DNA of 64,000 bases. It comes from Chitinispirillales bacterium (GTDB taxonomy: Bacteria; Fibrobacterota; Chitinivibrionia; Chitinivibrionales; Chitinispirillaceae). Of this stretch, positions 48,620 to 63,915 are shown piece by piece (the first letter of the stretch is position 1; each line of letters opens with the position of its first letter). The notes under the pieces were generated by a model that did no database searches, had not been told where the DNA came from, and saw nothing but the letters and a program-made list of their open reading frames with translations. The stretch spans positions 1 through 64,000 of the forward strand of contig JAIRVB010000011.1 in NCBI GenBank assembly GCA_031254105.1, read 5' to 3'. A program made the translations under genes and the position numbers.

Positions 48620-51600
48620 ATGATGATGTTGAAGAAGAGAAATGTGGCTGTTATGACGCTTTTGGTTGTGGCGTTAACCGCTTTTGGCAATGACGCGATG
48701 CAGAAAGCTCTTGATGGGAAGAAGTTTGATGAAGCTGTCAAACTGGGAGAGGCTATTTCTGCCGATTCGCGTACTGTTGAGCAGTGGATTAGCTTAGGGC
48801 TTGCCTATGAGGGTTTAAAGAACGCTGTTGAGGCTAAGAAAAGCTTTGAAGGCGCTATGCGGGCGAATCCAAGCCACCCCGGAGTGTATTTGGCTTATGG
48901 AAATTATGAACTGAGAACCGGACAGAATCAGGATGCTATAAAGCATTTTCGGAGAAGCCATCTTCTTGAGTCCAGCGCTGCGGCGGCTGAGGGTATGGCT
49001 ATAGCGGCAAGCCGCCTCAAAGATTGGGAAAGCGCCCGCGATGCCGCGGAATCGGCGATCTCTCTTAATCCTGACGCGCTTGAGTCCCGCAATATTTTGG
49101 CGACAATTCTTTTTGACGCCAAAAATTACGCGGCCGCCGCGCCTCATCTGGAGTATATAGCTTCCAAAAAGCCCAAAGAACTTGAAACATGGAGAAAACT
49201 TGTCGTCTGCTATGAAAGTACGAAAAACCGCGAGAAGCTTGCGTCTGTAGATCCGCAGATTATCGCACTTGACGCAAAGGATATCAAGTCCCGCCAGAGG
49301 CACGCTGAGTACTCTTTAGAAAAAAATGATACAAAAACAGCGCTCAATCTTTTTAAAGATCTGGCCCTGCTCACCCCTAACGATCCGAAGCCGTTTAAAA
49401 ATCTCTATGAGGCTTCTCTTAAAGATGGTAACAAAAAGGATGGAATCCTCTATCTAAAAAATTATGTAGTTCTTGATTCAAGCGACGCTTCTGCGATACG
49501 TCAACTTGCGGATCTGCTCTTTGAGGCAAAGGATATGGACGGCGCTCTTGACGCGTACCGTAAAACTGTCAGACGTAACGCGAATGTCAAAGGCGTTTCC
49601 AAGAATTACGCAACTATAGTTCTTGATAAGAAACTTGATGATGAAGCTTTAAGAGTGATACTAAGAGCTGTTACTCACAAGGAAGCCGATGCTATTATGT
49701 ACGCCGCCGCCGGTGATATTTACACAAAGCGCAAAGATCATGCAAACGCTATAAAGATGTACGCCGCCGCTCTTGATCTCGACAAGCAGAATCTCGCTCT
49801 TCTTGTTAAGCTTGCCGAAGCGCAGGCAGCTTCGGGCGATATCAGAAACGCTATAATCTCCTATGAACAGATCGTTCTGCTTAATGATAAGGCTGTTAAT
49901 GAGTATAAGATACTTGCAGACCTCACCACCAGATCCGGCAAGGAGAAGGAGGGGATGGATATCTACAAAAAGTATTTAGTTAAAGCTCCAAACGATCAGG
50001 AGACCGCTTCAAGAATCGGTTTGTATGAATATAAGAATAAACAGCATAAGGAAGCGGTCAGTTTCCTTACAAAAGTGCGCGACGCCAAGCTCCTTACCAC
50101 CGAAGTTCTGTTTGCGCTTGGGGATTCATATCACAAACTTGAGGATTGTAAAAACGCGATAGCCAGTTTCGAGAGGGTCAGAGCCGCGAAACCCTCTAAT
50201 CAGGTGCTTGCTAATACTTTGAAGCCGCTGGCTGAATGTTATGAGAAAAACGGAGACAAGGCTAAGGCCGCCGAAGCGTACACCGCTTATACCGCGCTTC
50301 CAAATGTTAAGGACGCCGAAGCTTCCTATCTTAAAGCCTATCTTCGCGAAGATACGGATAAAGCCGGAGCGATCAGGATGTATGAGGCCAATACAAAGGA
50401 GTATCCCAGAGATTACCGCAGCTTTATGAGACTTGGACTTATTTATTCACAGGAAGCCGCTACTCTGCCGCAGGCTGTAACGAACCTTCGCACAGCTTCG
50501 ATTCTGGCAGATACTGTCTCACTGATCTGGAAGACTCTGGGTGAGGTTCAGGGCAAGCTTAAGAACGCCGACGGAGAGCTGGCCGCTTATTCAAAGCTTC
50601 TTACTTTGCAGCCTAATGATGTTACCGCTAACAAGCGGGTCGGTACTATACAGATCAACCGTAAGCAGTTTGCTCCTGGTGTTGCAAGTCTCGAAAAAGT
50701 TGTAGCCGCTGATCCTAATGATTTTGAGGCGCGCATGCTGCTTGCGACAGGTTACGCAAGTACGAACCGTCCTAAGGAAGCGGCTGACCATTTCAGGAAA
50801 GCCAAAGAGCTTAAGGCTGATGATGTGTCTATCAGGCTCAGTCTTATTGACGCTCTTGGAAAGGCTGGAGATACTGCAGGGGTAAGGGAGGAGAGAAAAT
50901 CGCTTTCTGAACTTGACCGCAGGATCGCTGCAACCGACAAAAAGAATATTGAGGCGCGTCAGCGTCTTATTGTTTACAGCATGGCTCAGAAGGACAACGG
51001 AACCGCCTATGTTTTCCTTAATGAACTTGCGGAGCTTACTCCCAAAGATCAAAAGGTGTTCAAAAACCTCTATGATATTGCAATTGCCGGAGGTAAGAAA
51101 AAAGATGCTGTTAACTATCTCAGAAAGTATATCGCTTTAAAACCGGAAACAGCCGAGCCGCATAAAAATCTTGGACTTCTGCTTTTTGAAGAGAAGGATT
51201 TTGACGGCGCTCTTGTTGCTTTCAGAGAAGCCCGTAAACTCGACCCTCAGGTAAATGGTATCTATAAAGAGTTTATGACCATTCTCATACAGAAAAAACT
51301 TAATGATGAGATTCTTGTTGTCGGAAACGCAGCTATCGCCGCAAAAGAAATTGACGCGGCAGGCTATACTGCTATGGGCGATATCTACAGGGCGCAGAAC
51401 AAGCATGCGGACGCGGTCAGAATGTATAAGGCAGCGCTTGACATAGATACTAAAAACGTGGCGCTTCTGGCGCTGTTTGCCGAAAGTCAGGCAAAGAGCG
51501 GCGATTTGAGAAACGCGGTTATCTCCTATGAGCAGGTTATCGCCATGAACCCTTCTGCTGTCAAGGAGTTCAAGGATCTTGGAGATATTCAGATGAGGCT

Positions 51601-53041
51601 TGGAAGTCAGGATCAGGCGATGGCTACTTACAAAAAGTATCTTGAGAAAAATCCTGCGGATGAGCAGATCGCTCTTGTTGTCGGAAACTTTGATCATGGG
51701 AAGAAGCAGTATCAGAGCGCAGTCAGATATCTTGAAATGGTTAAGAAGAACGAACTGCAGACTATCACATATTTGTCTAACCTGGCGGACAGCTACTTCC
51801 AGCTTAAAAACTTCAAGAAAGCCGCTGAGCTTTACGACAGAGTGTGGAAGTCAAAACCCACACCGGCTCCCGCTGTTTTGAGAAATATTTTGAAGCCCCT
51901 TGGAGAAGCTTATGAGGCCGACAAACAGCCCGTTCAAGCAGCTGCCGCGTATGGCGCTTATGTGGCGATACAGGGTGTGGTTGACCCGGAAGCCTCTTTT
52001 AAAAGAGCGGCTCTAATAGAGAAGACAAATGAGGCGCAGGCTGTAAGAGATTACACTGCCAATACAAGGCTCTTTCCCAGAGACGCCAGAAGCTTTGTTC
52101 GTCTTGGAATGATTCAGGCGCAGAAAAAGGAGACCTGGGAGCAGGCTGCCGTCAATCTCAACGCAGCTGTAAAACTTGTAGACAACGATGCTGATGTCTG
52201 GCTGGAGCTTGCAAGGGTCAACGGTAATCTTAAGAGAACCAACGAAGAGTTGGCCGCATACAGAAAGTACGCCGCGCTTAAGCCGCAGGATTTCTCCGCA
52301 AGCCGCCGTATCGGTCAGATTTTGTATGAAAGGAAACAGTTCCAGGAAGCTATAACACATTTAGAAATGTTTCTTACTACAAATGACAAAGATGTAGAAG
52401 TTCTCCTGATGCTTGTTGACGCTTATGAGGGAACGAACAGGCAGCCTAAAGCCACCGAGCTTCTTGCGCGGGCAAAAACTCTTAAACCCAATGATCCCGG
52501 TGTGCGCGAGCGCCTCTACCTCATGTACAAAAAGGATGGTCAGAAAGCCAAGGCTGAAGTTGAGATCAGAGACCTTGTCGGTATCTCAAAAGACAACAAA
52601 CACCGTCTTATGTATATAGGCGATCTGATTGAAGCTAAGAAACTGGCCGAAGCCGCCGCTGTAGCCGCGGAAGTCCGCAAGAGCGATCCTCTCAATTTTG
52701 ACGGTCTTATGGCGGCAGCTGATATTCAGAGATTACAGAGAAGGTTCCCTGAAGCTATTGAGACCTATAAGTCTGTTCTCTTTATCAATGAGAATCACGC
52801 TCCGGCCTTTTTCGGAAGAGCGGAAGCGCATCTTGGCATGTCTGAGTTTGACCGTGCGGAATCTTTCTATAAGAGAGCCATTGCCGTAGATCCAAAAATG
52901 GCCCGCGCCGAGCTTGGACTTGCTAAAGTGTATAATGCTCAAAAGAAAAGAGACCTGCGGAACGCTCACTTAGCCAAAGCGAGAGCGCTTGATCCTAACA
53001 ATAAGGAATTTATTGAGGAACTTAATCAGCTTGCTAAGTAG
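48620..53041 (+). CDS. Large secreted tetratricopeptide-repeat protein with internal duplication
   Basis: This 1473-residue protein has a signal peptide (about 1-23) and then only helical TPR-type repeats, with the usual W/L-G-Y-A-F-A-P pattern (for example ALDAYRKTV, NAISYEQIVLL). Residues about 210-760 are repeated as about 765-1320: DAKDIKSRQRH matches DKKNIEARQRL, and ALDLDKQNLALLVKLAEAQ matches ALDIDTKNVALLALFAESQ. The repeat length is near 555 residues. The last 150 residues are further TPRs. Such scaffolds bind partner proteins in the periplasm or at the outer membrane, and TPR proteins of this size occur in gliding and secretion systems. It has a promoter, a strong terminator and no clear partner beyond the M48 protease after it. 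Confidence 0.85.
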   Translation: MMMLKKRNVAVMTLLVVALTAFGNDAMQKALDGKKFDEAVKLGEAISADSRTVEQWISLGLAYEGLKNAVEAKKSFEGAMRANPSHPGVYLAYGNYELRTGQNQDAIKHFRRSHLLESSAAAAEGMAIAASRLKDWESARDAAESAISLNPDALESRNILATILFDAKNYAAAAPHLEYIASKKPKELETWRKLVVCYESTKNREKLASVDPQIIALDAKDIKSRQRHAEYSLEKNDTKTALNLFKDLALLTPNDPKPFKNLYEASLKDGNKKDGILYLKNYVVLDSSDASAIRQLADLLFEAKDMDGALDAYRKTVRRNANVKGVSKNYATIVLDKKLDDEALRVILRAVTHKEADAIMYAAAGDIYTKRKDHANAIKMYAAALDLDKQNLALLVKLAEAQAASGDIRNAIISYEQIVLLNDKAVNEYKILADLTTRSGKEKEGMDIYKKYLVKAPNDQETASRIGLYEYKNKQHKEAVSFLTKVRDAKLLTTEVLFALGDSYHKLEDCKNAIASFERVRAAKPSNQVLANTLKPLAECYEKNGDKAKAAEAYTAYTALPNVKDAEASYLKAYLREDTDKAGAIRMYEANTKEYPRDYRSFMRLGLIYSQEAATLPQAVTNLRTASILADTVSLIWKTLGEVQGKLKNADGELAAYSKLLTLQPNDVTANKRVGTIQINRKQFAPGVASLEKVVAADPNDFEARMLLATGYASTNRPKEAADHFRKAKELKADDVSIRLSLIDALGKAGDTAGVREERKSLSELDRRIAATDKKNIEARQRLIVYSMAQKDNGTAYVFLNELAELTPKDQKVFKNLYDIAIAGGKKKDAVNYLRKYIALKPETAEPHKNLGLLLFEEKDFDGALVAFREARKLDPQVNGIYKEFMTILIQKKLNDEILVVGNAAIAAKEIDAAGYTAMGDIYRAQNKHADAVRMYKAALDIDTKNVALLALFAESQAKSGDLRNAVISYEQVIAMNPSAVKEFKDLGDIQMRLGSQDQAMATYKKYLEKNPADEQIALVVGNFDHGKKQYQSAVRYLEMVKKNELQTITYLSNLADSYFQLKNFKKAAELYDRVWKSKPTPAPAVLRNILKPLGEAYEADKQPVQAAAAYGAYVAIQGVVDPEASFKRAALIEKTNEAQAVRDYTANTRLFPRDARSFVRLGMIQAQKKETWEQAAVNLNAAVKLVDNDADVWLELARVNGNLKRTNEELAAYRKYAALKPQDFSASRRIGQILYERKQFQEAITHLEMFLTTNDKDVEVLLMLVDAYEGTNRQPKATELLARAKTLKPNDPGVRERLYLMYKKDGQKAKAEVEIRDLVGISKDNKHRLMYIGDLIEAKKLAEAAAVAAEVRKSDPLNFDGLMAAADIQRLQRRFPEAIETYKSVLFINENHAPAFFGRAEAHLGMSEFDRAESFYKRAIAVDPKMARAELGLAKVYNAQKKRDLRNAHLAKARALDPNNKEFIEELNQLAK

Positions 53042-55026: not shown

Positions 55027-55212
55027 TTCCCCTGCATCTTCAACAGTAGTTACAAAACCTGATGTTGCGCAGCTAATTAAAAATCAAGAGCTTAGCGAAA
55101 TCATGGTTTTACAGGTTTCTGGCAAACTGTTTTGTTAGGAGCTATTTCCGTTCGCTTCCATCAGCGCAATGGAAAACAACAGATATATTTTTAATGTTAC
55201 AGGTAAAAATAA
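55027..55212. other. Convergent intergenic region
   Basis: Between the lipoprotein gene and the end of the biosynthetic operon. A plus-strand frame at 55031-55138 (PASSTVVTKPDVAQLIKNQE...) looks coding but has no start and is not recognised, perhaps the tail of a lost secreted protein. I see no strong terminator. Confidence 0.35.
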
Positions 55213-55917
55213 TTATGAGAAAAGTACGGAATTAATAACTTTTACTACATCCTCAGGATTTTTAAACGGAAAAAAATGATCTCCATCAAATTCATGAATA
55301 TTGCATCCAATATTTGAATAATCTTCCCAGGATGACAACTCTTCCGCTGATACATTATCTCCTCTTCCGCTGAAAACATGAATAGGACAATCAATTTTTT
55401 CTTTTTTACTTTTATATGTACTTTTTTCTGTTATCTTAAAGTCAGATATAATAACAGGGAGAAATAAATTCATCATCTTCGGATCTGATAATAACTCTGG
55501 CGGCATACCGCCTAACTCAACAACTTTCTCTTTAAATTCTTCTAACGGCAGATTATGAAATATCACTTCGTCCTTTACAACATGGTGAGGCGCTCTTCTT
55601 CCTGAGAGAAATATATGGGACGGCGTTTTTTTATTATCTTCTAAAATCCTGTAGTATAGCTCGTACACAAGCCAGCAGCCCATACTGTGTCCAAACAACG
55701 CGTACCGGTTATCAGAAATTTTATCCTTTATCTGGCGGTATATATCTTCTGTCGCTGACGCAAAGTCATCATATAACCGCGATTTACGTCTTGTGCCCCG
55801 CCCTGACAGTTCTACAGGGTGTAATTTTATTTTATTGTTTAAAAATGGCTTCCATTTGTAATATACAAAAGCGCTTGCGCCCGCGTACGGCACACAAAAT
55901 AACGTTATACTTTTCAT
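55213..55917 (-). CDS. Type II thioesterase (NRPS/PKS editing type)
   Basis: This 234-residue alpha/beta hydrolase resembles type II thioesterases: LFCVPYAGASAFVYYKW at the start, catalytic serine in FGHSMG at residue 78, and later the Asp (SGRGDN, near 191) and His (DGDHFF, near 220). These enzymes hydrolyse acyl groups from carrier-protein phosphopantetheine arms, either to remove wrong loads or to release products. It ends the nine-gene operon, 15 bases after the transporter. The carrier protein in the same operon is its expected partner. The gene looks AT-richer than those upstream of 55000. Confidence 0.85.
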   Translation of the reverse strand: MKSITLFCVPYAGASAFVYYKWKPFLNNKIKLHPVELSGRGTRRKSRLYDDFASATEDIYRQIKDKISDNRYALFGHSMGCWLVYELYYRILEDNKKTPSHIFLSGRRAPHHVVKDEVIFHNLPLEEFKEKVVELGGMPPELLSDPKMMNLFLPVIISDFKITEKSTYKSKKEKIDCPIHVFSGRGDNVSAEELSSWEDYSNIGCNIHEFDGDHFFPFKNPEDVVKVINSVLFS

Positions 55918-55932
55918 GATACCTGAGCTCCG

Positions 55933-57321
55933 TTAAATAATCCCAAACACCGAACTGGCAATAAACAATACTGAAGTAACTACAATAATAACATATATTT
56001 GAAGTAAAAATGTACTCTTAGGCATATCCAGCATAGAGTAATAACCGGAGCTGTACGTAATAAGCGGAATTGTATCAAGAGGTAAGAGATAGCAATTTCC
56101 GGAAGCTATTGCCAATGTTATGATTATGAGTTCCGGGCTGTAACCCATAGATTGCGCAAGATTAATAAGCGGCAGCGCCAAAAGCATGACGACAGAAGGG
56201 GCGACGGGCATAATTATCAGTATGGTAAAAACAAGCGCAACAGTAAACGCGATAAGTCCGGGAAGCGGCATTTGACTTTCCGGAAAAAAAGTTATTATCC
56301 ATTTAGATACCCCATTTATATCCATTATCTTGCCTAACGACAAAACGGTTCCTACGAGAAAGAATGAATTAAAGTTTATGCTTTTAGCGAAAGAGTTCCA
56401 TTCCAAGACTCTTATACCGGGGAAAAACATTATACACGCGCCTAAAATGGCTACCACTACAATATTGATTTGGCTGAACCAGGATGACATAATCCATAAA
56501 ACAAGCATAAGCGATGTAATAACAAGCACTTTCTTTTCTTTTGAACTCATTTTTGGAGGAACGTCTAATTTTTCTATAAAAGTTTCAATCATTTGCGAGT
56601 TTATTTCCGCGGGTTTATATATTTTACAAATCAGTATCCAGGCAACAGGCAGCATAAGCAGCACAATGGGAACGCCGACAGACGTCCATTGAATAAATGA
56701 AATTGTTTTATTGGTATATGTTTCCAAAAGGTCAATGGCAAGCAGATTCATTGTACTCCCGACAGGAGTAGCGACTCCGCCAAAAAGACAGGTGACAGGA
56801 ATAGCGATCATAAGCGCTCTTCCGGTTTTTTTCCTTGCCGCGTCATCCTCAAACAATTCTAAAAAACGCAATCCAATGCCCATAAAAAGCGCGCATATAG
56901 GTACGCTTGAAACAAAAGCCGTAAGCGGCAGTATGCACAACATGATTGCTAAAAGCATACTCTTAATATTTTTACCGAATTTTCTAAGCAATAAAACCAG
57001 GATTCTTTTTGAAAGCGGCAATTCTGTAAAAGCCGCCGCGATTCCAAATGAAGCAAGGATGAAAAAAACAACTGGATTTGAAAATCCCGACAATGCCGCG
57101 CCAAGTCCGGGCGCTATGTTGATAAGCGGCATAATGCCAAGCACAGACCAGCATATAATAGTTAATGGCAACGCTTCGGTAATCAAAAGAATCAAAAATA
57201 CTACAGCCAGCGCAATAGTGCGAATCGCGCCGGACGAAAGGGTTTCTGTTCCCTGAATAAAAAATGAACCGATAATAATAAGAACCGAAAACAATATAAA
57301 AAAATTCTTTTTAATATTCAT
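55933..57321 (-). CDS. DASS/SLC13-type anion symporter
   Basis: The 462-residue inner-membrane protein has about twelve helices and the divalent-anion:sodium symporter (SLC13/CitT-like) outline. Two half-repeats each contain a hairpin loop: GGVATPVGSTMNLLAID in the first half, and ASGNCYLLPLDTIPLITYS in the second, where related carriers have SNT or TPxN motifs. It could take up the acid that feeds the pathway or export its product or an exchanged acid. The frame is open from 57375 inside ubiX; ATG 57321 is chosen because it begins just before the first helix, while GTG 57342 is an alternative with AAAGGAAG before it. Confidence 0.8.
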   Translation of the reverse strand: MNIKKNFFILFSVLIIIGSFFIQGTETLSSGAIRTIALAVVFLILLITEALPLTIICWSVLGIMPLINIAPGLGAALSGFSNPVVFFILASFGIAAAFTELPLSKRILVLLLRKFGKNIKSMLLAIMLCILPLTAFVSSVPICALFMGIGLRFLELFEDDAARKKTGRALMIAIPVTCLFGGVATPVGSTMNLLAIDLLETYTNKTISFIQWTSVGVPIVLLMLPVAWILICKIYKPAEINSQMIETFIEKLDVPPKMSSKEKKVLVITSLMLVLWIMSSWFSQINIVVVAILGACIMFFPGIRVLEWNSFAKSINFNSFFLVGTVLSLGKIMDINGVSKWIITFFPESQMPLPGLIAFTVALVFTILIIMPVAPSVVMLLALPLINLAQSMGYSPELIIITLAIASGNCYLLPLDTIPLITYSSGYYSMLDMPKSTFLLQIYVIIVVTSVLFIASSVFGII

Positions 57322-57328
57322 GCCGTTA

Positions 57329-57895
57329 TTAATTTCCACCGCGCCATCTTCCTTTGTATTCTGTAAAAATTTCAAGATGATCTAAAAGTTTTACTACAAA
57401 ATGTTCAATCATATCATCTAAAGTTTTCGGATTATTGTAAAACGCGGGCATTGGAGGAATTATATGTACCCCCATATTAGATAATTTAAGCATATTTTCT
57501 ATATGTATAGAGTTAAGCGGAGTTTCTCGCGGACACACTATAAGTTTTCTGCGTTCCTTTAGACAAACGTCTGCAGCTCTGACAATAAGCGTATCTGAAT
57601 AACCGTGTGCAATCGCACTCATGGTCTTCATACTGCATGGCAAAATAAGCATTGCATCGGTTCTAAAAGAACCACTGGATATTTGTGCGCTTAAATCATT
57701 ATTTTCATATTTGCGATAACATAATTCAAATAAATATTCCAATGAGTATTGGGTTTCTATTTGCAATGTTCTTATTCCCCAGTCGCTTATAATAAGATGT
57801 ATTTTTGATTTGGGTGATACATCTTTAATTTTTTCAAGAAACCTCACGGCGAATATTGTTCCTGTCGAGCCTGTTATACCTAAAATTATTTCCAA
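57329..57895 (-). CDS. ubiX: UbiX-family flavin prenyltransferase
   Basis: This 188-residue enzyme makes the prenylated FMN cofactor used by UbiD-type decarboxylases. It has the FMN-binding GITGSTGTIFAV at the N terminus, ISSGSF, the PCSMKTMSAIAHG phosphate loop, RAADVCLKERRKLIV, PRETPLNSIHIENM and the closing PPMPAFYNNP. These match the subfamily called BsdB/VdcB in hydroxyarylic acid decarboxylase operons. The start is a TTG at 57895 preceded by GAGGTGAT. The dimethylallyl-phosphate substrate would come from the cell's own pathway. Confidence 0.92.
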   Translation of the reverse strand: MEIILGITGSTGTIFAVRFLEKIKDVSPKSKIHLIISDWGIRTLQIETQYSLEYLFELCYRKYENNDLSAQISSGSFRTDAMLILPCSMKTMSAIAHGYSDTLIVRAADVCLKERRKLIVCPRETPLNSIHIENMLKLSNMGVHIIPPMPAFYNNPKTLDDMIEHFVVKLLDHLEIFTEYKGRWRGGN

Positions 57896-57995: not shown

Positions 57996-58379
57996 TCATA
58001 GCGTAATGTCAGTTCCGCTTTTATCATTTGTTAATATCATCTCTGAAATCAAGACCTGTTCAATCAAACTCACCGCCATTTTCCGTACAAGGTCAATTTC
58101 TTCTTTCGTTATTTCATCAAAATGAATTCCGCTGACAATAACGTAGTTGGCATTCCATTTTTTACGGAGAATTTCAGACAGGTCATGGTTTAAATAATTT
58201 TCCCTATGATACGGAAAAGCAACGTTTGCCATACACTCACTGCCAACACAAACAGCTCCGATATGGCTTGCACCGCCTGTTAATAAAAGACATAAATCAT
58301 TTCCCATCATGACTGCCTTTAATATTAGTTCAATATGTCCTTCTTTTGCTGAAAACTCTACCATTCTCATCAGCTTCAT
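57996..58379 (-). CDS. LpdD-like prenylated-flavin chaperone/decarboxylase accessory protein
   Basis: This 127-residue protein starts with an ATG that overlaps the stop of the VdcD-like gene as ATGA, so it is translationally coupled. The conserved core is MGNDLCLLLTGGASHIGAVCV (about residues 25-46), with the HIGAV motif at 39-43, followed by FPYHRENYLNHDLSEILR. This is the pattern of the LpdD-like family found beside gallate and other aryl decarboxylases and proposed to shuttle or shield prenylated FMN. The family call is from memory of the motif. The presence of UbiX, UbiD and VdcD-like genes around it supports it well. Confidence 0.7.
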   Translation of the reverse strand: MKLMRMVEFSAKEGHIELILKAVMMGNDLCLLLTGGASHIGAVCVGSECMANVAFPYHRENYLNHDLSEILRKKWNANYVIVSGIHFDEITKEEIDLVRKMAVSLIEQVLISEMILTNDKSGTDITL

Positions 58380-58597
58380 ATAAGTTTTGGTATCGGCGGA
58401 ATTATAGGGCACGAATCTATTTTATCAGGGTCAATTCTAAAACGTTCGTCGTAAAGTTCCCGCTCCTTATTCTCTGCTGGTTCTGTATCACGGTATGAGT
58501 AGCAACAAGTATTGCATATATATGCGCTCCAAACATCACCTTTCGGTGATTTTACCATAAATACAATATCATCTTTTCCGCAACGAGGACAAATCAT
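58376..58597 (-). CDS. VdcD/BsdD-like small zinc-ribbon subunit
   Basis: This 73-residue protein has two Cys-x2-Cys knuckles, C3/C6 and C28/C31, with the spacing of a zinc ribbon, and the family landmarks KSPKGDVWSAYICNTC and FRIDPDKIDSCP, which line up closely with VdcD/BsdD. In Bacillus and Streptomyces the D subunit is needed with B (UbiX-like) and C (UbiD-like) for full non-oxidative decarboxylation of vanillate or 4-hydroxybenzoate. AGGAGG precedes the ATG, and the UbiD gene ends 14 bases upstream. Confidence 0.85.
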   Translation of the reverse strand: MICPRCGKDDIVFMVKSPKGDVWSAYICNTCCYSYRDTEPAENKERELYDERFRIDPDKIDSCPIIPPIPKLI

Positions 58598-58611: not shown

Positions 58612-60021
58612 TTATTTTAAATTTTTATTTATATACTCAATCCATTTATCTGTATCTGGCGGTCTTTCTAATAACTCTGTTTCCCTTGCAATATCCGGTG
58701 CAACAGGTGTAGTCGCATCAATAATGATTTTAGTATTCATTCCTGCCGGTTCGCTTGTCGGGTCTAACGGTACACCCGGACAATTTGGTATTATCACTAC
58801 ATCTTTATCTCCGCGAACTCTTGTTGTGATTGCCCACATTACTTGCGGTAAATTAAACGGGTCAACAAATTCGTCAACTATTATAATAAATTTGGAATAA
58901 GGTATTCCGTGAGGCGTAGACAACAAACGCATAGCTACAGACTTTCCAAATCCTCCAAAACGTTTTTTTGTTGAAATTATAACGCCGATTCCATGCGTGT
59001 ACATAGCATTAACAGCTTGTATTTCAGGAAAATCACGTTTGATTTGTTTATAAATCGGTATACTTGTATTAAGCGCAAGCAAAAAATCAATTTCCGTCCA
59101 CGGAATTCCAAGATATAAGTTCTCAAATATTGGGGATTTACGATGTGTTATTTTAGTTATAACAACTTCGGCTTGATTACGTACTCCCGAATAGCTGCCC
59201 GTGAATTCTCCGAAAGGACCCTCTACGCGACGTACTCTTGGGATTATATAACCTTCAAGTGCAACTTCACTTCTTGCAGGAATATCCAAATCCCCGCTTT
59301 CTGATTTTGTAAGCTCCACCGGTTGACCTTTTAATGCTCCCGCGAAGTCATACTCTGACTGCGCATATTCAATAGGAGTACCGGACATAAAATTCATAAG
59401 AGGGTCGTTTCCGATACATATTACAACAGGAAGCGGCTTGTTTCTTTCTTCTGCTTTCCGTAAATTAACACCAATATCATGGAAAGGCATAGCTTGAATA
59501 CCTAATCTGTTTTTACCTTTCACCTGCAGCCGATAAGTCCCGACATTTTGCTTGTCAAAATTATCGGGGTCTTCAGGGTCTTTTGTAATAATCAATGGTT
59601 TTGAAATGTAGAAACCGGCATCAAACTTATTTATACGGTATAAACTCAAAACATCAAATAAATTTATATTCTCGGTTATCTTTACTTCTTTAATCGGAGC
59701 ATCCTTTGAATTTACCCATACGGGCTTAACAGGATAGTCATCCCAACGGCTGTTCAATTCAAAAAACTGTTCTTTTATTGTACTGTTTTTGGGCATACCG
59801 AGCATTAAGGCATGATTTTTCCACGAGCCGTGCACATTTAAAACAACAGGATTATTATACCCCTTTATACGCTCGACAAATACCGCGGGACCCGCCTCAG
59901 TATCCGGCGCCGCCCGACCTATGGCGGATAAGTCGGGTTCAGGCGCCAGTTCCTCCTTTATCCTTACCAATTGGTTTTCTTTTTCCAATATAAGTAAAAA
60001 TTCTCTTAAATCTCTGTACAA
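58612..60021 (-). CDS. UbiD-family prenyl-FMN-dependent decarboxylase
   Basis: The 469-residue protein belongs to the UbiD family that reversibly decarboxylates aromatic and alpha,beta-unsaturated acids. It has the N-terminal DLREFLLILEKENQLVRI, the cofactor/metal-binding stretch NVGTYRLQVKGKNRLGIQ, the ALEGYIIPRVRRVEGPFGEFTG segment with the conserved glutamates and arginine near residue 260, and the later VDEFVDPFNLPQVMWA. The VdcD-like and LpdD-like genes downstream point to the hydroxyarylic-acid (VdcC/BsdC, gallate) subgroup rather than to ubiquinone synthesis. The start is TTG 60021 with AAGGGGA upstream. The true substrate is unknown. Confidence 0.9.
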   Translation of the reverse strand: MYRDLREFLLILEKENQLVRIKEELAPEPDLSAIGRAAPDTEAGPAVFVERIKGYNNPVVLNVHGSWKNHALMLGMPKNSTIKEQFFELNSRWDDYPVKPVWVNSKDAPIKEVKITENINLFDVLSLYRINKFDAGFYISKPLIITKDPEDPDNFDKQNVGTYRLQVKGKNRLGIQAMPFHDIGVNLRKAEERNKPLPVVICIGNDPLMNFMSGTPIEYAQSEYDFAGALKGQPVELTKSESGDLDIPARSEVALEGYIIPRVRRVEGPFGEFTGSYSGVRNQAEVVITKITHRKSPIFENLYLGIPWTEIDFLLALNTSIPIYKQIKRDFPEIQAVNAMYTHGIGVIISTKKRFGGFGKSVAMRLLSTPHGIPYSKFIIIVDEFVDPFNLPQVMWAITTRVRGDKDVVIIPNCPGVPLDPTSEPAGMNTKIIIDATTPVAPDIARETELLERPPDTDKWIEYINKNLK

Positions 60022-60064: not shown

Positions 60065-60349
60065 TTAATTCACTAAGTCCCCCTGTTTGGCAGACAGCTT
60101 ATTTTGTATAAAATCAATAAGCATGGATACGTTCTCAAACATATCCAAATTCATCTCGTCGGCTTCACAGGCAAACTCAAACCTTTTCTCGATCTGAACG
60201 ATTAAATTCATAATTTGCAGCGAATCAAACGCTAAATCATTAATTAACGATGTTTGTTCGGTTAATTCCGGAATCATCTCTTTCAGAACGACATATTCAT
60301 CGTCCATTAAAATGTCTTTAAGCTTTTGCAAAATTATTTCCCTTTTCAT
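60065..60349 (-). CDS. Acyl carrier protein
   Basis: The 94-residue acidic protein is a dedicated carrier protein: LAFDSLQIMNLIVQIEKRF holds the phosphopantetheine serine at residue 43 in an FDSLQ motif, a normal variant of DSL. The four-helix pattern is complete, with a slightly long C-terminal tail (SAKQGDLVN). It is not the housekeeping AcpP: the sequence is less acidic in helix II, and the gene sits in a biosynthetic operon with a ligase, thioesterase and radical SAM enzyme. GGGAGG precedes its start. It is the likely platform for the activated acid. Confidence 0.92.
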   Translation of the reverse strand: MKREIILQKLKDILMDDEYVVLKEMIPELTEQTSLINDLAFDSLQIMNLIVQIEKRFEFACEADEMNLDMFENVSMLIDFIQNKLSAKQGDLVN

Positions 60350-60402
60350 AATAACCTCCCTCCGAGTTTATAAATAAGCCTGTACTTAGTACTGTAATCA
60401 GA

Positions 60403-61686
60403 TCAGCCGCGGAAAACATGTGACATATGAGATTTCTGCTGATGCGGCAAATAAAATAACCGGACAATGTCATCCGCGTAAACCATCCCCTCAAATGTCA
60501 ACATTATATGCGTATCCGTAATCTGAACGAATCTCATTTCCTGCAGACGGCGCAGTTCATTTCCGAATATGGTCATTACATCAACGCCGAATTCATCATA
60601 AAAGGGCTGCGTCTCATAATTCATAGATTTAAGACCGAATACAATACGTTGGATCATCGCCTCGCGCGGACTGAAATCATACGCTCTCATAATAGGCAAT
60701 TCGCCGTCTTTCAAAATGCGCTTTGTGTAATGTTCAATATTTATTTCATTTTGAAATAAAACGTCGTTAATACATGAACGCGCGGAAGCTCCGATGCCAA
60801 GCAGATCCTCGCCCGCCCAGACCATTTTACGATGAACATGGTTATGGGCTTCATTTATTGAAAAACTAAAATTTGTGACTGCCAAATATCCGCTGTGTAA
60901 TATTGTTTTAAACCCTTGTTTTACATAATCGGCTTCTTCTTCATTGCTTATTAATTTTATGTCCTTACTCCGCAGCTTTTTAAACATTATAATGTTTAAA
61001 TACGCTTCAAGTTTATATATGGTAATATTTTCAGGATGAAGCTCGATTACCTTCTCAACCGTATCCATCCAGCTGTCAAGTGACTGCCCCGCCATTCCGG
61101 ACATAATATCAATATTTATGGAGGGAATTTTCACTTTTTTTGCCAGTTCAAACGCTTTAGTAAAGTCAGAAACGCTGTGGTTTCTGCCGTTGACGCTCAA
61201 AACTTCATCATCCATACTTTGTAATCCCAGACTCAGTCTCCTGAGATTATGTTCTCTTAACAGCCGCAGTTTTTCCTCGTCAGTTTCAAGCCCAGGCCGC
61301 GCTTCAAAACATAGTTCATAATCGGAAGCCAGATTAAAGCACTCCTTTACTTTTGCCATAAGCTTATTAATTTGAGACCCTGTCAGCTTTGTCGGAGTGC
61401 CGCCGCCGAAATAAACGGCGCTTGTTTTTTTGGAGCGGATAAAAGGGTTGCCGCTGTACAGTTCCATTTCACGCAATAATGCCTGTACATATTCATCCGG
61501 AACCGGTTCGTCTCCTATTTCTACGGCTTTGTAATAACAAAATTCACATTTTTTATGACAATAAGGAATGTGAACATATAAATTAAAACCTTCCGGACTC
61601 CATAAAGATTGTAAATCTTTTTTGCTCAGGAAATTAGAAGGCGGGTACTGATTGATAAAATCTTCTCTTGCTAATGTTAATTCCAT
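60403..61686 (-). CDS. HemN-like radical SAM enzyme
   Basis: The 427-residue protein is related to HemN/HemW. It has the Fe4S4-binding C43-x3-C47-x2-C50 in HIPYCHKKCEFCYYK, the SAM-binding GGGTPT (94-99), a second motif LSLGLQSMDDEVL, and a C-terminal HemN_C-like winged region. Housekeeping HemN has a further cysteine (CxxxCxxCxC), not seen here, so it is not the oxygen-independent coproporphyrinogen oxidase. HemN-like enzymes in secondary metabolism (class C) do methyl transfer or cyclopropanation. Co-location with a ligase and carrier protein suggests work on a carrier-bound acyl group. Its start overlaps the ligase stop by 10 bases. Confidence 0.85.
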   Translation of the reverse strand: MELTLAREDFINQYPPSNFLSKKDLQSLWSPEGFNLYVHIPYCHKKCEFCYYKAVEIGDEPVPDEYVQALLREMELYSGNPFIRSKKTSAVYFGGGTPTKLTGSQINKLMAKVKECFNLASDYELCFEARPGLETDEEKLRLLREHNLRRLSLGLQSMDDEVLSVNGRNHSVSDFTKAFELAKKVKIPSINIDIMSGMAGQSLDSWMDTVEKVIELHPENITIYKLEAYLNIIMFKKLRSKDIKLISNEEEADYVKQGFKTILHSGYLAVTNFSFSINEAHNHVHRKMVWAGEDLLGIGASARSCINDVLFQNEINIEHYTKRILKDGELPIMRAYDFSPREAMIQRIVFGLKSMNYETQPFYDEFGVDVMTIFGNELRRLQEMRFVQITDTHIMLTFEGMVYADDIVRLFYLPHQQKSHMSHVFRG

Positions 61687-63110
61687 TGCTGCTCTCCTCT
61701 TAGATATCTGTATAATATTTTACCGGTTTCGCTTTTAGGAATTTCATTAATAAACTCAATTTTTTTAGGTACTTTATAGTCCGCTATGCGTTCTCTGCAA
61801 TGGTTGATAATTAACTTTTTGTCAAGATTTTCCTTAGTAACTATAAAAGCCTTTACAGTCTCGCCGTATAGTTCCGACGGTTCGCCGATCACAACGGTTT
61901 CTTTGACCCCGTCCAGTTCCATCAGCGCTTTTTCAACTTCGACAGGGTCAACTTTCATGCCGGCTACGTTAATAAAATTGCTCTGCCTTCCGTGTACATA
62001 TACATATCCTTCATCGTCTATAGACGCTATGTCGCCGAGACTGAGCCATCCCTCTTTGAATTGAGAATTAAGAACTTGAGGATACAAATACCTGGACGCG
62101 TCATTTTTACTTTTAGTAGCTAATACTCCTTTCTGATTTTCGATTTGCGATATCTTAAACTGCCTGTCGCCCAAAGGCTTTCCTACAGAAAGTATATGTT
62201 CACCTGGATTATTATTGAGGCACATTGCGCCTGTTTCCGTTGTGCCGTAAATCTGCGTAATATACGCGCCGCAGAAATCTTTAAATTTTTGAATGGTATT
62301 GGCGGGGGTAGGCGCGCCGGCGGTCAAACATAATCTCAAAGAATGCGAACTGTCAATTTTCACTTTAGAGTCAAGGATGATCTGATATAAAAACGGCACT
62401 GCGACTAATGCCGTAACATTATGCTTTACAATATTTTTTATAATATTCGCCGGTATATAATCCGTATAGAAAAACACGGTGGCGCCTGTATATAACGGCG
62501 CAAGAGTACCCGGAACTAAACCGAATGAATGACAAACCGGAGATGTGACAAGGAATACGTCTTCATTAGTGATACCGGCGGAATTTAAAACATCTTCAAT
62601 TTCGCCTTTTACCGCGTCTACAGTTCGGATTGCGCCTTTAGCGTTGCCGATTGTTCCGCTTGTAATTTGACATATATAATCCCCCGGATAATATTCCGCG
62701 GCAGCGGATATATTTGCTTTTTCCCAAATAGCGATATTAGCAGCCTGTTTTATTACAGTAAATCCGTAACTTGTAAAATCAATCTCTGAGCCGGCTAAAG
62801 CAAATAAATAACCTGTATTCGCTGAATTAATATGATAAGTCAATTCATTGTTTCGGAATTTACTGTTCAGAAGAAGCGCGCAATGACCGGTAATCTCAGA
62901 AGCGCATAAACAAAAAACGAACTCTGCGCAATTTGGCATACAGATGGCAATAGGAGCCTCGGGAGTCAGCTCTAATTTTTCAATTTCCGAAGCGATAAGA
63001 TGAATGTTTCTTTTTAAATCATCGTAAGAATATGATTCAGCCCCGGATAAAATAGCGGGCTTATCCGGAGTAGTTTGCGCATTACGAATGATTTGACTGG
63101 TTATTTTCAT
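61677..63110 (-). CDS. AMP-dependent acyl ligase (ANL superfamily)
   Basis: The 477-residue enzyme activates a carboxylic acid as an acyl-adenylate and probably loads it on the nearby carrier protein. The core motifs are TSGTIGNAKG (about 150-159), YGTTETG (288-294), SLGDI, the hinge YVHGRQSNFINVAG and the C-terminal lysine in PKSETGKILYR (464). All catalytic residues are present, and the end is the normal length. The pocket motif VCHSFGLVPG is of the acyl/aryl-CoA-synthetase type, so the acid could be aryl or fatty. ATG 63110 is chosen over 63128 because AAAGGA lies eight bases before it. It is first in the operon; a condensation domain is absent. Confidence 0.88.
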   Translation of the reverse strand: MKITSQIIRNAQTTPDKPAILSGAESYSYDDLKRNIHLIASEIEKLELTPEAPIAICMPNCAEFVFCLCASEITGHCALLLNSKFRNNELTYHINSANTGYLFALAGSEIDFTSYGFTVIKQAANIAIWEKANISAAAEYYPGDYICQITSGTIGNAKGAIRTVDAVKGEIEDVLNSAGITNEDVFLVTSPVCHSFGLVPGTLAPLYTGATVFFYTDYIPANIIKNIVKHNVTALVAVPFLYQIILDSKVKIDSSHSLRLCLTAGAPTPANTIQKFKDFCGAYITQIYGTTETGAMCLNNNPGEHILSVGKPLGDRQFKISQIENQKGVLATKSKNDASRYLYPQVLNSQFKEGWLSLGDIASIDDEGYVYVHGRQSNFINVAGMKVDPVEVEKALMELDGVKETVVIGEPSELYGETVKAFIVTKENLDKKLIINHCRERIADYKVPKKIEFINEIPKSETGKILYRYLRGEQQWN

Positions 63111-63325
63111 AAGCATATTCCTTTTCATAATGATGATTATTGACTTTATGAATAAAACCGATGTTATTGAAGTGTTATTTTATAACTAATTAAACTTTAA
63201 TGGGTTACCTCCATTCACTTTTGATTATTAATAACAGTTGTTCAAAAATCTACGAGGTTACAGTTACGGTGGATTTGCAATAGTCGAGCTTCTTACACTA
63301 TCCGTTCATACCTGCGGAAGCGAAG

Positions 63326-63690: not shown

Positions 63691-63915
63691 CTGATGTTAC
63701 GCACTGGATGGTATCTCCAGCCCCGATGAGGCATCATATATTTAACGATGGGTATGGGAGTAAGATGACCCATGACGCAGACGCAGGAAGTCATCTGCAT
63801 TCACATTCACATCTCCTAAGAATATGGGACATGCGCTCGCTCGTAAGCATAGGGCTGCACCCTATGTTCGCATATTACGCCCCTTCGGGGCTTAGAGTAT
63901 TCTGCGTAACATCAG
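63691..63915. mobile_element. MITE-like element, 225 bp, with 13-bp TIRs and 7-bp TSD
   Basis: CTGATGTTACGCA (63691-63703) and TGCGTAACATCAG (63903-63915) are perfect terminal inverted repeats. The 7-bp sequence TTATTAA flanks both sides directly (63684-63690 and 63916-63922), as a target-site duplication would. The inside has no transposase and holds short palindromes (AGCATAGGGCTGCACCCTATG and CGCCCCTTCGGGGC). It is a non-autonomous element that would need a transposase from elsewhere. Confidence 0.75.

Follow-up and report, generated by a model that had tools for sequence, protein, structure and literature searches.

The locus described here resembles two groups of known systems. The first comprises enzymes that work on aryl acids bound to a stand-alone carrier protein. 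In the nosiheptide module NosI/NosJ/NosN/NosK, which has a nocathiacin relative in NocN, an AMP ligase, a stand-alone carrier, a class C HemN-like enzyme and an alpha/beta hydrolase are clustered. The loading of indolic acid onto the carrier and the methylation of the carrier-bound ring by NosI/NosJ/NosN were reported in vitro (PMC5585349). However, a recent structural paper places the physiological substrate of NosN on a peptide rather than on the carrier (PMC12871812), which weakens this closest precedent. Even for NosN, it is a matter of dispute whether a class C enzyme works on an aromatic acid held by a carrier. A small operon that brings its own ligase, carrier and thioesterase would open this question to a direct test without a peptide scaffold. 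In the mitomycin cluster, the MitE ligase charges the stand-alone carrier MmcB with a hydroxybenzoic-type acid for tailoring, and the same cluster contains a radical SAM gene, MitD (PMC8621148). HemN-like enzymes catalyse varied reactions (PMC6050322, PMC9714029), and one of them, CoeI, methylates a free anthraquinone (PMC9714029). These enzymes are often labelled as heme enzymes, and other chemistry is thereby hidden. A literature search found no paper joining the terms "aryl carrier protein" and radical SAM.

The second group comprises the prFMN-dependent decarboxylases of the VdcBCD/ShdBCD kind. Sedimentibacter VdcC acts on hydroxybenzoic acids and requires VdcD (PMC8379154), LpdD is a chaperone of prFMNH2 (PMC10865409), and the characterised members of the VdcC/VdcD/LpdD/UbiX set act on hydroxybenzoic acids (PMC8379154, PMC10865409).

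Gene content and layout of the operon

The window, i.e., the whole stretch of 64,000 nucleotides that was analysed, carries nine consecutive minus-strand genes that run from 63128 to 55213, and every junction between them is either an overlap or a gap of no more than 100 nt:

61677-63128, minus strand: AMP-forming acyl/aryl ligase (ANL superfamily), gene 1 of the operon; 483 aa; AMP-binding 1.1e-46, AMP-binding_C 9.5e-19
60403-61686, minus strand: HemN-like radical SAM protein with a C-x3-C-x2-C motif; 427 aa; Radical_SAM 4.4e-24, HemN_C 3.5e-5 (Pfam)
60065-60349, minus strand: stand-alone acyl/aryl carrier protein; 94 aa; PF00550 (PP-binding) 3.3e-7; DSL phosphopantetheine motif
58612-60021, minus strand: VdcC/UbiD prFMN-dependent hydroxyaryl-acid decarboxylase, catalytic subunit; NF041204, 739 bits (cut-off 650)
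58376-58597, minus strand: VdcD zinc-ribbon activating subunit; NF041205, 86.9 bits (cut-off 30)
57996-58412, minus strand: LpdD-like prFMNH2-binding chaperone, start uncertain; PF21758 1.1e-22; structures 8po5/8pzh 1.5e-6
57329-57895, minus strand: UbiX/VdcB flavin prenyltransferase; TIGR00421, 237 bits (cut-off 108.9)
55933-57375, minus strand: DASS/SLC13-type sodium:anion symporter; PF00939 2e-37; the start may be the GTG at 57339
55213-55917, minus strand: PKS/NRPS-like type II thioesterase, final gene of the operon; PF00975 9.2e-36; Ser-Asp-His intact

The first-pass annotation had pointed to the adjacency of the ligase, the radical SAM protein and the carrier, and this order was recovered at the first three positions of the list. 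The operon extends well past these genes, with the decarboxylase set, the DASS symporter and the thioesterase, down to 55213. The ligase gene overlaps the radical SAM gene by 10 nt, and 53 nt separate the latter from the carrier gene. Both the radical SAM and the carrier genes are preceded by good ribosome-binding sites, which together with the DSL motif of the carrier places the trio well beyond chance. The genes that flank the operon on either side lie on the opposite strand, and hence the operon is bounded. The gene set, this layout and the intact catalytic motifs can be read off the DNA itself. The G+C content of the operon genes is 34-40%, compared with 44% for positions 1-55000 of the window. 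No Rfam match was found in the operon region, and promoter and terminator scans returned about as many sites as in shuffled sequences.

A 225-bp element resembling a MITE precedes the operon, at positions 63691-63915 of the window. Its terminal inverted repeats of 13 bp (CTGATGTTACGCA) match perfectly, and it has a target duplication similar to TTAATAA. At L093 (18596-18686), close to the end of a contig, there is a related copy, and the 13-mer recurs with one mismatch shortly after the downstream end of the operon, at 55059. In addition, positions 48620-53041 of the window encode a repeat-rich protein of 1473 aa with the appearance of an extended TPR array.

The HemN-like radical SAM protein

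The cysteine motif of the protein reads C43-HKK-C47-EF-C50-Y-Y, where E. coli HemN has C-HKL-C-YF-C-G-C. The first-pass annotation had stressed a C-x3-C-x2-C motif without the extra cysteine of HemN, and the motif is as it described. The fourth cysteine is, however, likewise absent from HemW, HutW/ChuW and NocN, so that its absence means "not HemN" and no more; it was rejected as evidence for class C. We also applied the published motifs of HemN, HemW and the menaquinone methylases, those of HemN and the menaquinone methylases as given in PMC10320005. The HemN motifs GPRYTSYPTA and RNFQGYTT and the C-x3-C-x2-C-x-C pattern were absent from the protein, as was HNxxYW, the heme-binding motif of HemW, and none of the six MenK/MqnK menaquinone methyltransferase signatures was present. 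The family models gave the same picture, with 178 bits for HemN (cut-off 325), 183 bits for HutW/ChuW (cut-off 400; no hut or chu gene occurs in the operon), and a score that was also below the curated HemW cut-off. The best NCBIfam model by E-value, the STM4012 family of radical SAM proteins, reached 189 bits, yet this is far under its cut-off of 380. The failure of the HemN and HemW tests is as directly legible as the gene order. The protein also has an N-terminal YPP extension, which is found in several HemN-like proteins annotated without a function, whereas HemW lacks it.

In a 36-row full-length tree the protein fell outside both the HemW clade (100/98) and the HemN clade (100/100), and was placed as the sister of the former (96/90), a position that could reflect a HemW-like ancestor. 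A 56-row tree gave it no resolved place because of long branches. In a 27-row core tree that included a 228-residue part of NocN, the grouping of the protein with NocN was neither found nor rejected (p-AU 0.333), its exclusion from HemW was not significant, and its deep position was not resolved.

The genomic setting bears on a role in heme metabolism. No heme genes are located near the operon, no ferrochelatase was detected by Pfam in the genome, although HemB is present, and the only other HemN_C protein found in the genome is an ordinary HemW encoded elsewhere, with no further HemN-type protein; the earlier view that the gene lies outside a heme context was thus correct. A role as coproporphyrinogen oxidase or as heme chaperone is unlikely. 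That the protein might be the oxygen-independent coproporphyrinogen oxidase that this genome otherwise lacks is suggested by the family resemblance, by HemN being its best solved structure, and by HemW being the sole other HemN_C protein, but a HemN score little more than half of the cut-off, the lost fourth cysteine, the lack of both HemN substrate motifs, and the missing ferrochelatase and heme neighbours make this idea hardly credible. A divergent HemW-type protein, i.e., a heme chaperone or a relic with no catalytic part in the pathway, would fit the observation that, its own genome apart, HemW-type proteins of Bacillota gave the highest bit scores, and that HemW is the nearest clade in the 36-row tree. 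The absence of HNxxYW, the YPP extension, the position outside the HemW clade (with the qualification that the core tree does not support this exclusion significantly), the ordinary HemW elsewhere in a genome without a detected ferrochelatase, and the clustering with a ligase and a carrier speak against it, and we consider it very improbable.

We then analysed whether the residues that bind the two SAM molecules in NocN are kept, taking Y34, Y96, R153, R171, D196 and S225 of NocN (SAM-I and SAM-II) as the reference. The protein retains SAM-I/SAM-II residues as Y37, Y92, G96, T97, R150, G154, R168 and D193, and NocN S225 corresponds to T222, which is a conservative change. All the mappable SAM residues were kept or conservatively changed except C133 (Ala here) and R230 (Glu here), but this conservation is not specific, since HemW, which is no methylase, keeps most of them. 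Of those compared sequences that allowed the strand motif DIMSG to be read, NocN alone shared it with the protein. Together, the kept residues and DIMSG hint at a NocN-like two-SAM enzyme. The two proteins are only distantly similar (phmmer 2.6e-26). An AlphaFold2 model obtained from a shallow alignment (pLDDT 75, pTM 0.77) matched HemN far ahead of the other PDB entries listed (E 3.1e-31, TM 0.77), and NocN was not among the matches listed. The class C proposal of the first-pass annotation finds some support in the HemN-like fold with C-x3-C-x2-C and in the two-SAM residues, and the trees neither recovered nor rejected a grouping with NocN.

The carrier and decarboxylase modules and a proposed pathway

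In the ligase, the core motifs TSGTIGNAKG and PKSETGK could be read directly, and translation may in fact begin at one of two in-frame ATG codons, 63116 or 63110. Its nearest solved relatives are the MenE o-succinylbenzoate-CoA ligases (1.3e-45), from which the substrate specificity cannot be read. The best NCBIfam match of the carrier was AsbD-like (1.1e-8, under the cut-off), its phosphopantetheine motif is FDSLQ, and a phosphopantetheinyl transferase is encoded in the genome. The nearest structures to the thioesterase were 5ugz (9.4e-49), RifR (2.9e-30) and the surfactin thioesterase (1.2e-29). By gene content, a ligase, a carrier, a HemN-like enzyme and an alpha/beta hydrolase occur together, which is the NosI/J/N/K arrangement of nosiheptide. 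The likeness extends to the putative aryl acid on a carrier and to the conserved SAM-binding residues (PMC5585349, PMC12871812). In contrast, neither a RiPP precursor nor a NosL-type indolic acid synthase was recognised in the operon, which has a prFMN decarboxylase set and a transporter instead. With mitomycin the operon shares the stand-alone carrier and a ligase that would load it with an aryl acid, but there the carrier-dependent tailoring is a glycosylation and a reduction, and no decarboxylase set is described (PMC8621148).

All the subunits of the VdcBCD/ShdBCD decarboxylases are present, together with an LpdD-like chaperone. VdcC and VdcD exceeded the cut-offs of their own models, and the third subunit exceeded that of the UbiX family, while the VdcB model gave it 256 bits, below the 290 cut-off. 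VdcC was closest to the phenolic acid decarboxylase structure 7ae4 (682 bits), which we take to be that of Sedimentibacter VdcC, the enzyme of PMC8379154. The LpdD-like protein aligned with 8po5 with both conserved histidines in place, and the third metal ligand, D63, is replaced by Glu. In a Bacillota locus VdcC and VdcD are likewise followed by a DASS protein, 30% identical to that of the operon, and the carrier trio is absent; more broadly, five VdcC loci of Bacillota were examined, and the ligase/radical SAM/carrier trio was found in none of them. The occurrence of the VdcC-VdcD-DASS order in Bacillota without the trio suggests that a carrier module and a decarboxylation module came together here. 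The operon appears to combine known parts in an unusual and new way.

In the Bacillota locus with VdcC-VdcD-DASS (L058, 5730-11978), the decarboxylase module has other neighbours, namely one gene resembling an ADP-forming acyl-CoA synthetase and one resembling a thiamine-diphosphate 2-oxoacid oxidoreductase. When the Bacillota genomes were searched, the nearest gene to the UbiD of the window (71%; L055, 8979-10463) proved to be interrupted by an in-frame TAA.

From this gene content we infer an aromatic substrate, its loading onto the carrier, C-methylation and the order of the steps. The ligase would activate an aryl acid as the AMP ester and load it onto the phosphopantetheine arm of the 94-aa carrier. 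The radical SAM enzyme would bind two SAM molecules, one of which would give a 5'-deoxyadenosyl radical that turns the second into a methylene radical, which in turn would add to the carrier-bound ring, so that ring C-methylation, as proposed for NosN, would be the likeliest product. The type II thioesterase would then free the product from the carrier. UbiX and the LpdD-like chaperone would equip VdcCD with prFMN. Because VdcCD requires a free carboxylate, it would act on the free acid only, i.e., before loading or after release, and would either turn the released product into a (methyl)phenol by decarboxylation or, working in the opposite direction, provide the starting acid. Transport of the acid across the membrane would fall to the DASS protein.

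Three readings of the radical step have to be weighed here. That the operon serves to process an aromatic (hydroxybenzoic-type) acid bound to a carrier of its own, most probably with a two-SAM radical C-methylation followed by release and the VdcCD step, is the reading that we tentatively favour, with a confidence somewhat short of even. The first-pass annotation had the enzyme act on a carrier-bound acyl chain; a carrier-linked two-SAM enzyme is still the best reading, with the ligase/carrier precedent of NosI/NosJ/NosN (PMC5585349), but the acyl chain is not supported, and an aromatic acid is more likely because the downstream genes encode a hydroxyaryl-acid decarboxylase. Nevertheless, the substrate could be carrier-bound and undergo another two-SAM chemistry, such as cyclopropanation, desaturation or, as in HemN, oxidative decarboxylation of a side chain, and an aliphatic or cinnamic-type acyl group might then be used. 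The fold alone cannot separate the varied reactions of HemN-like enzymes (PMC6050322, PMC9714029), and an ACP with a type II thioesterase is also typical of aliphatic carrier pathways; since the characterised VdcCD substrates are hydroxybenzoic acids and the operon has no ketosynthase or fatty-acid gene, we judge this somewhat unlikely. It is unlikely, too, that the radical SAM enzyme acts on a free small molecule (a free phenol or acid), with the ligase, carrier and thioesterase serving a separate step. Co-location in an operon is no proof of a carrier-bound substrate, CoeI offers a precedent (PMC9714029), and the true substrate of NosN is disputed (PMC12871812), but here the ligase, radical SAM and carrier genes are consecutive and the first two overlap.

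Within the favoured aromatic, carrier-bound reading, the complete sequence of events, with C-methylation (or another addition of carbon) of a hydroxybenzoic acid on the carrier by a HemN-like enzyme of its own lineage, followed by release and prFMN-dependent decarboxylation to a methylated phenol, is possible but doubtful. If true, it would link radical C-methylation to prFMN decarboxylation, and it would be, to our knowledge, the first carrier-bound aryl radical C-methylation by this enzyme class outside thiopeptide biosynthesis.

Distribution and origin

No orthologue of the radical SAM protein was found in the other genomes of the phylum (168 genomes, E up to 1e-36), and UbiD was absent from the same genomes (E up to 1e-100). 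Being unique among them in both proteins, the operon probably arrived by horizontal transfer. The identity of UbiD to Bacillota proteins is 65-71%, and to those of Priestia plasmids 73%, and for the UbiD part horizontal acquisition appears likely from these comparisons. In a limited Bacillota sample, the radical SAM matches peaked at 212 bits in 398 genomes and were HemW-type proteins, and a search of 83 genomes from the class to which the best UbiD match belongs gave no orthologue (E 1e-66). A pattern search of genome contigs retrieved only a Clostridiaceae HemW. No relative sharing the gene context of the operon was found in any of these sets, i.e., the genome contigs and the 168 phylum, 398 Bacillota and 83 class genomes.

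The matches on plasmids, phages and viral contigs were set aside, being HemN, HemW, HutW or STM4012-like proteins, or further HemN-like ones, whose gene contexts are unrelated to the operon. The Rhizobium and Bradyrhizobium homologues adjoin genes for B12-type radical SAM proteins, for glycosyltransferases or for other proteins, and the other proteins of the operon had no match at these loci. One of these HemN-like proteins, on a Rhizobium plasmid (L024, 8159-11308), carries the YPP extension and a C-x3-C-x2-C-Y-F motif. Its gene comes immediately after one that resembles a B12-type radical SAM gene, within what seems to be a biosynthetic cluster. In a viral contig of 302 kb from IMG/VR (L071, 2800-5359), a HemN-like radical SAM gene is followed by an asparagine-synthase-like gene.
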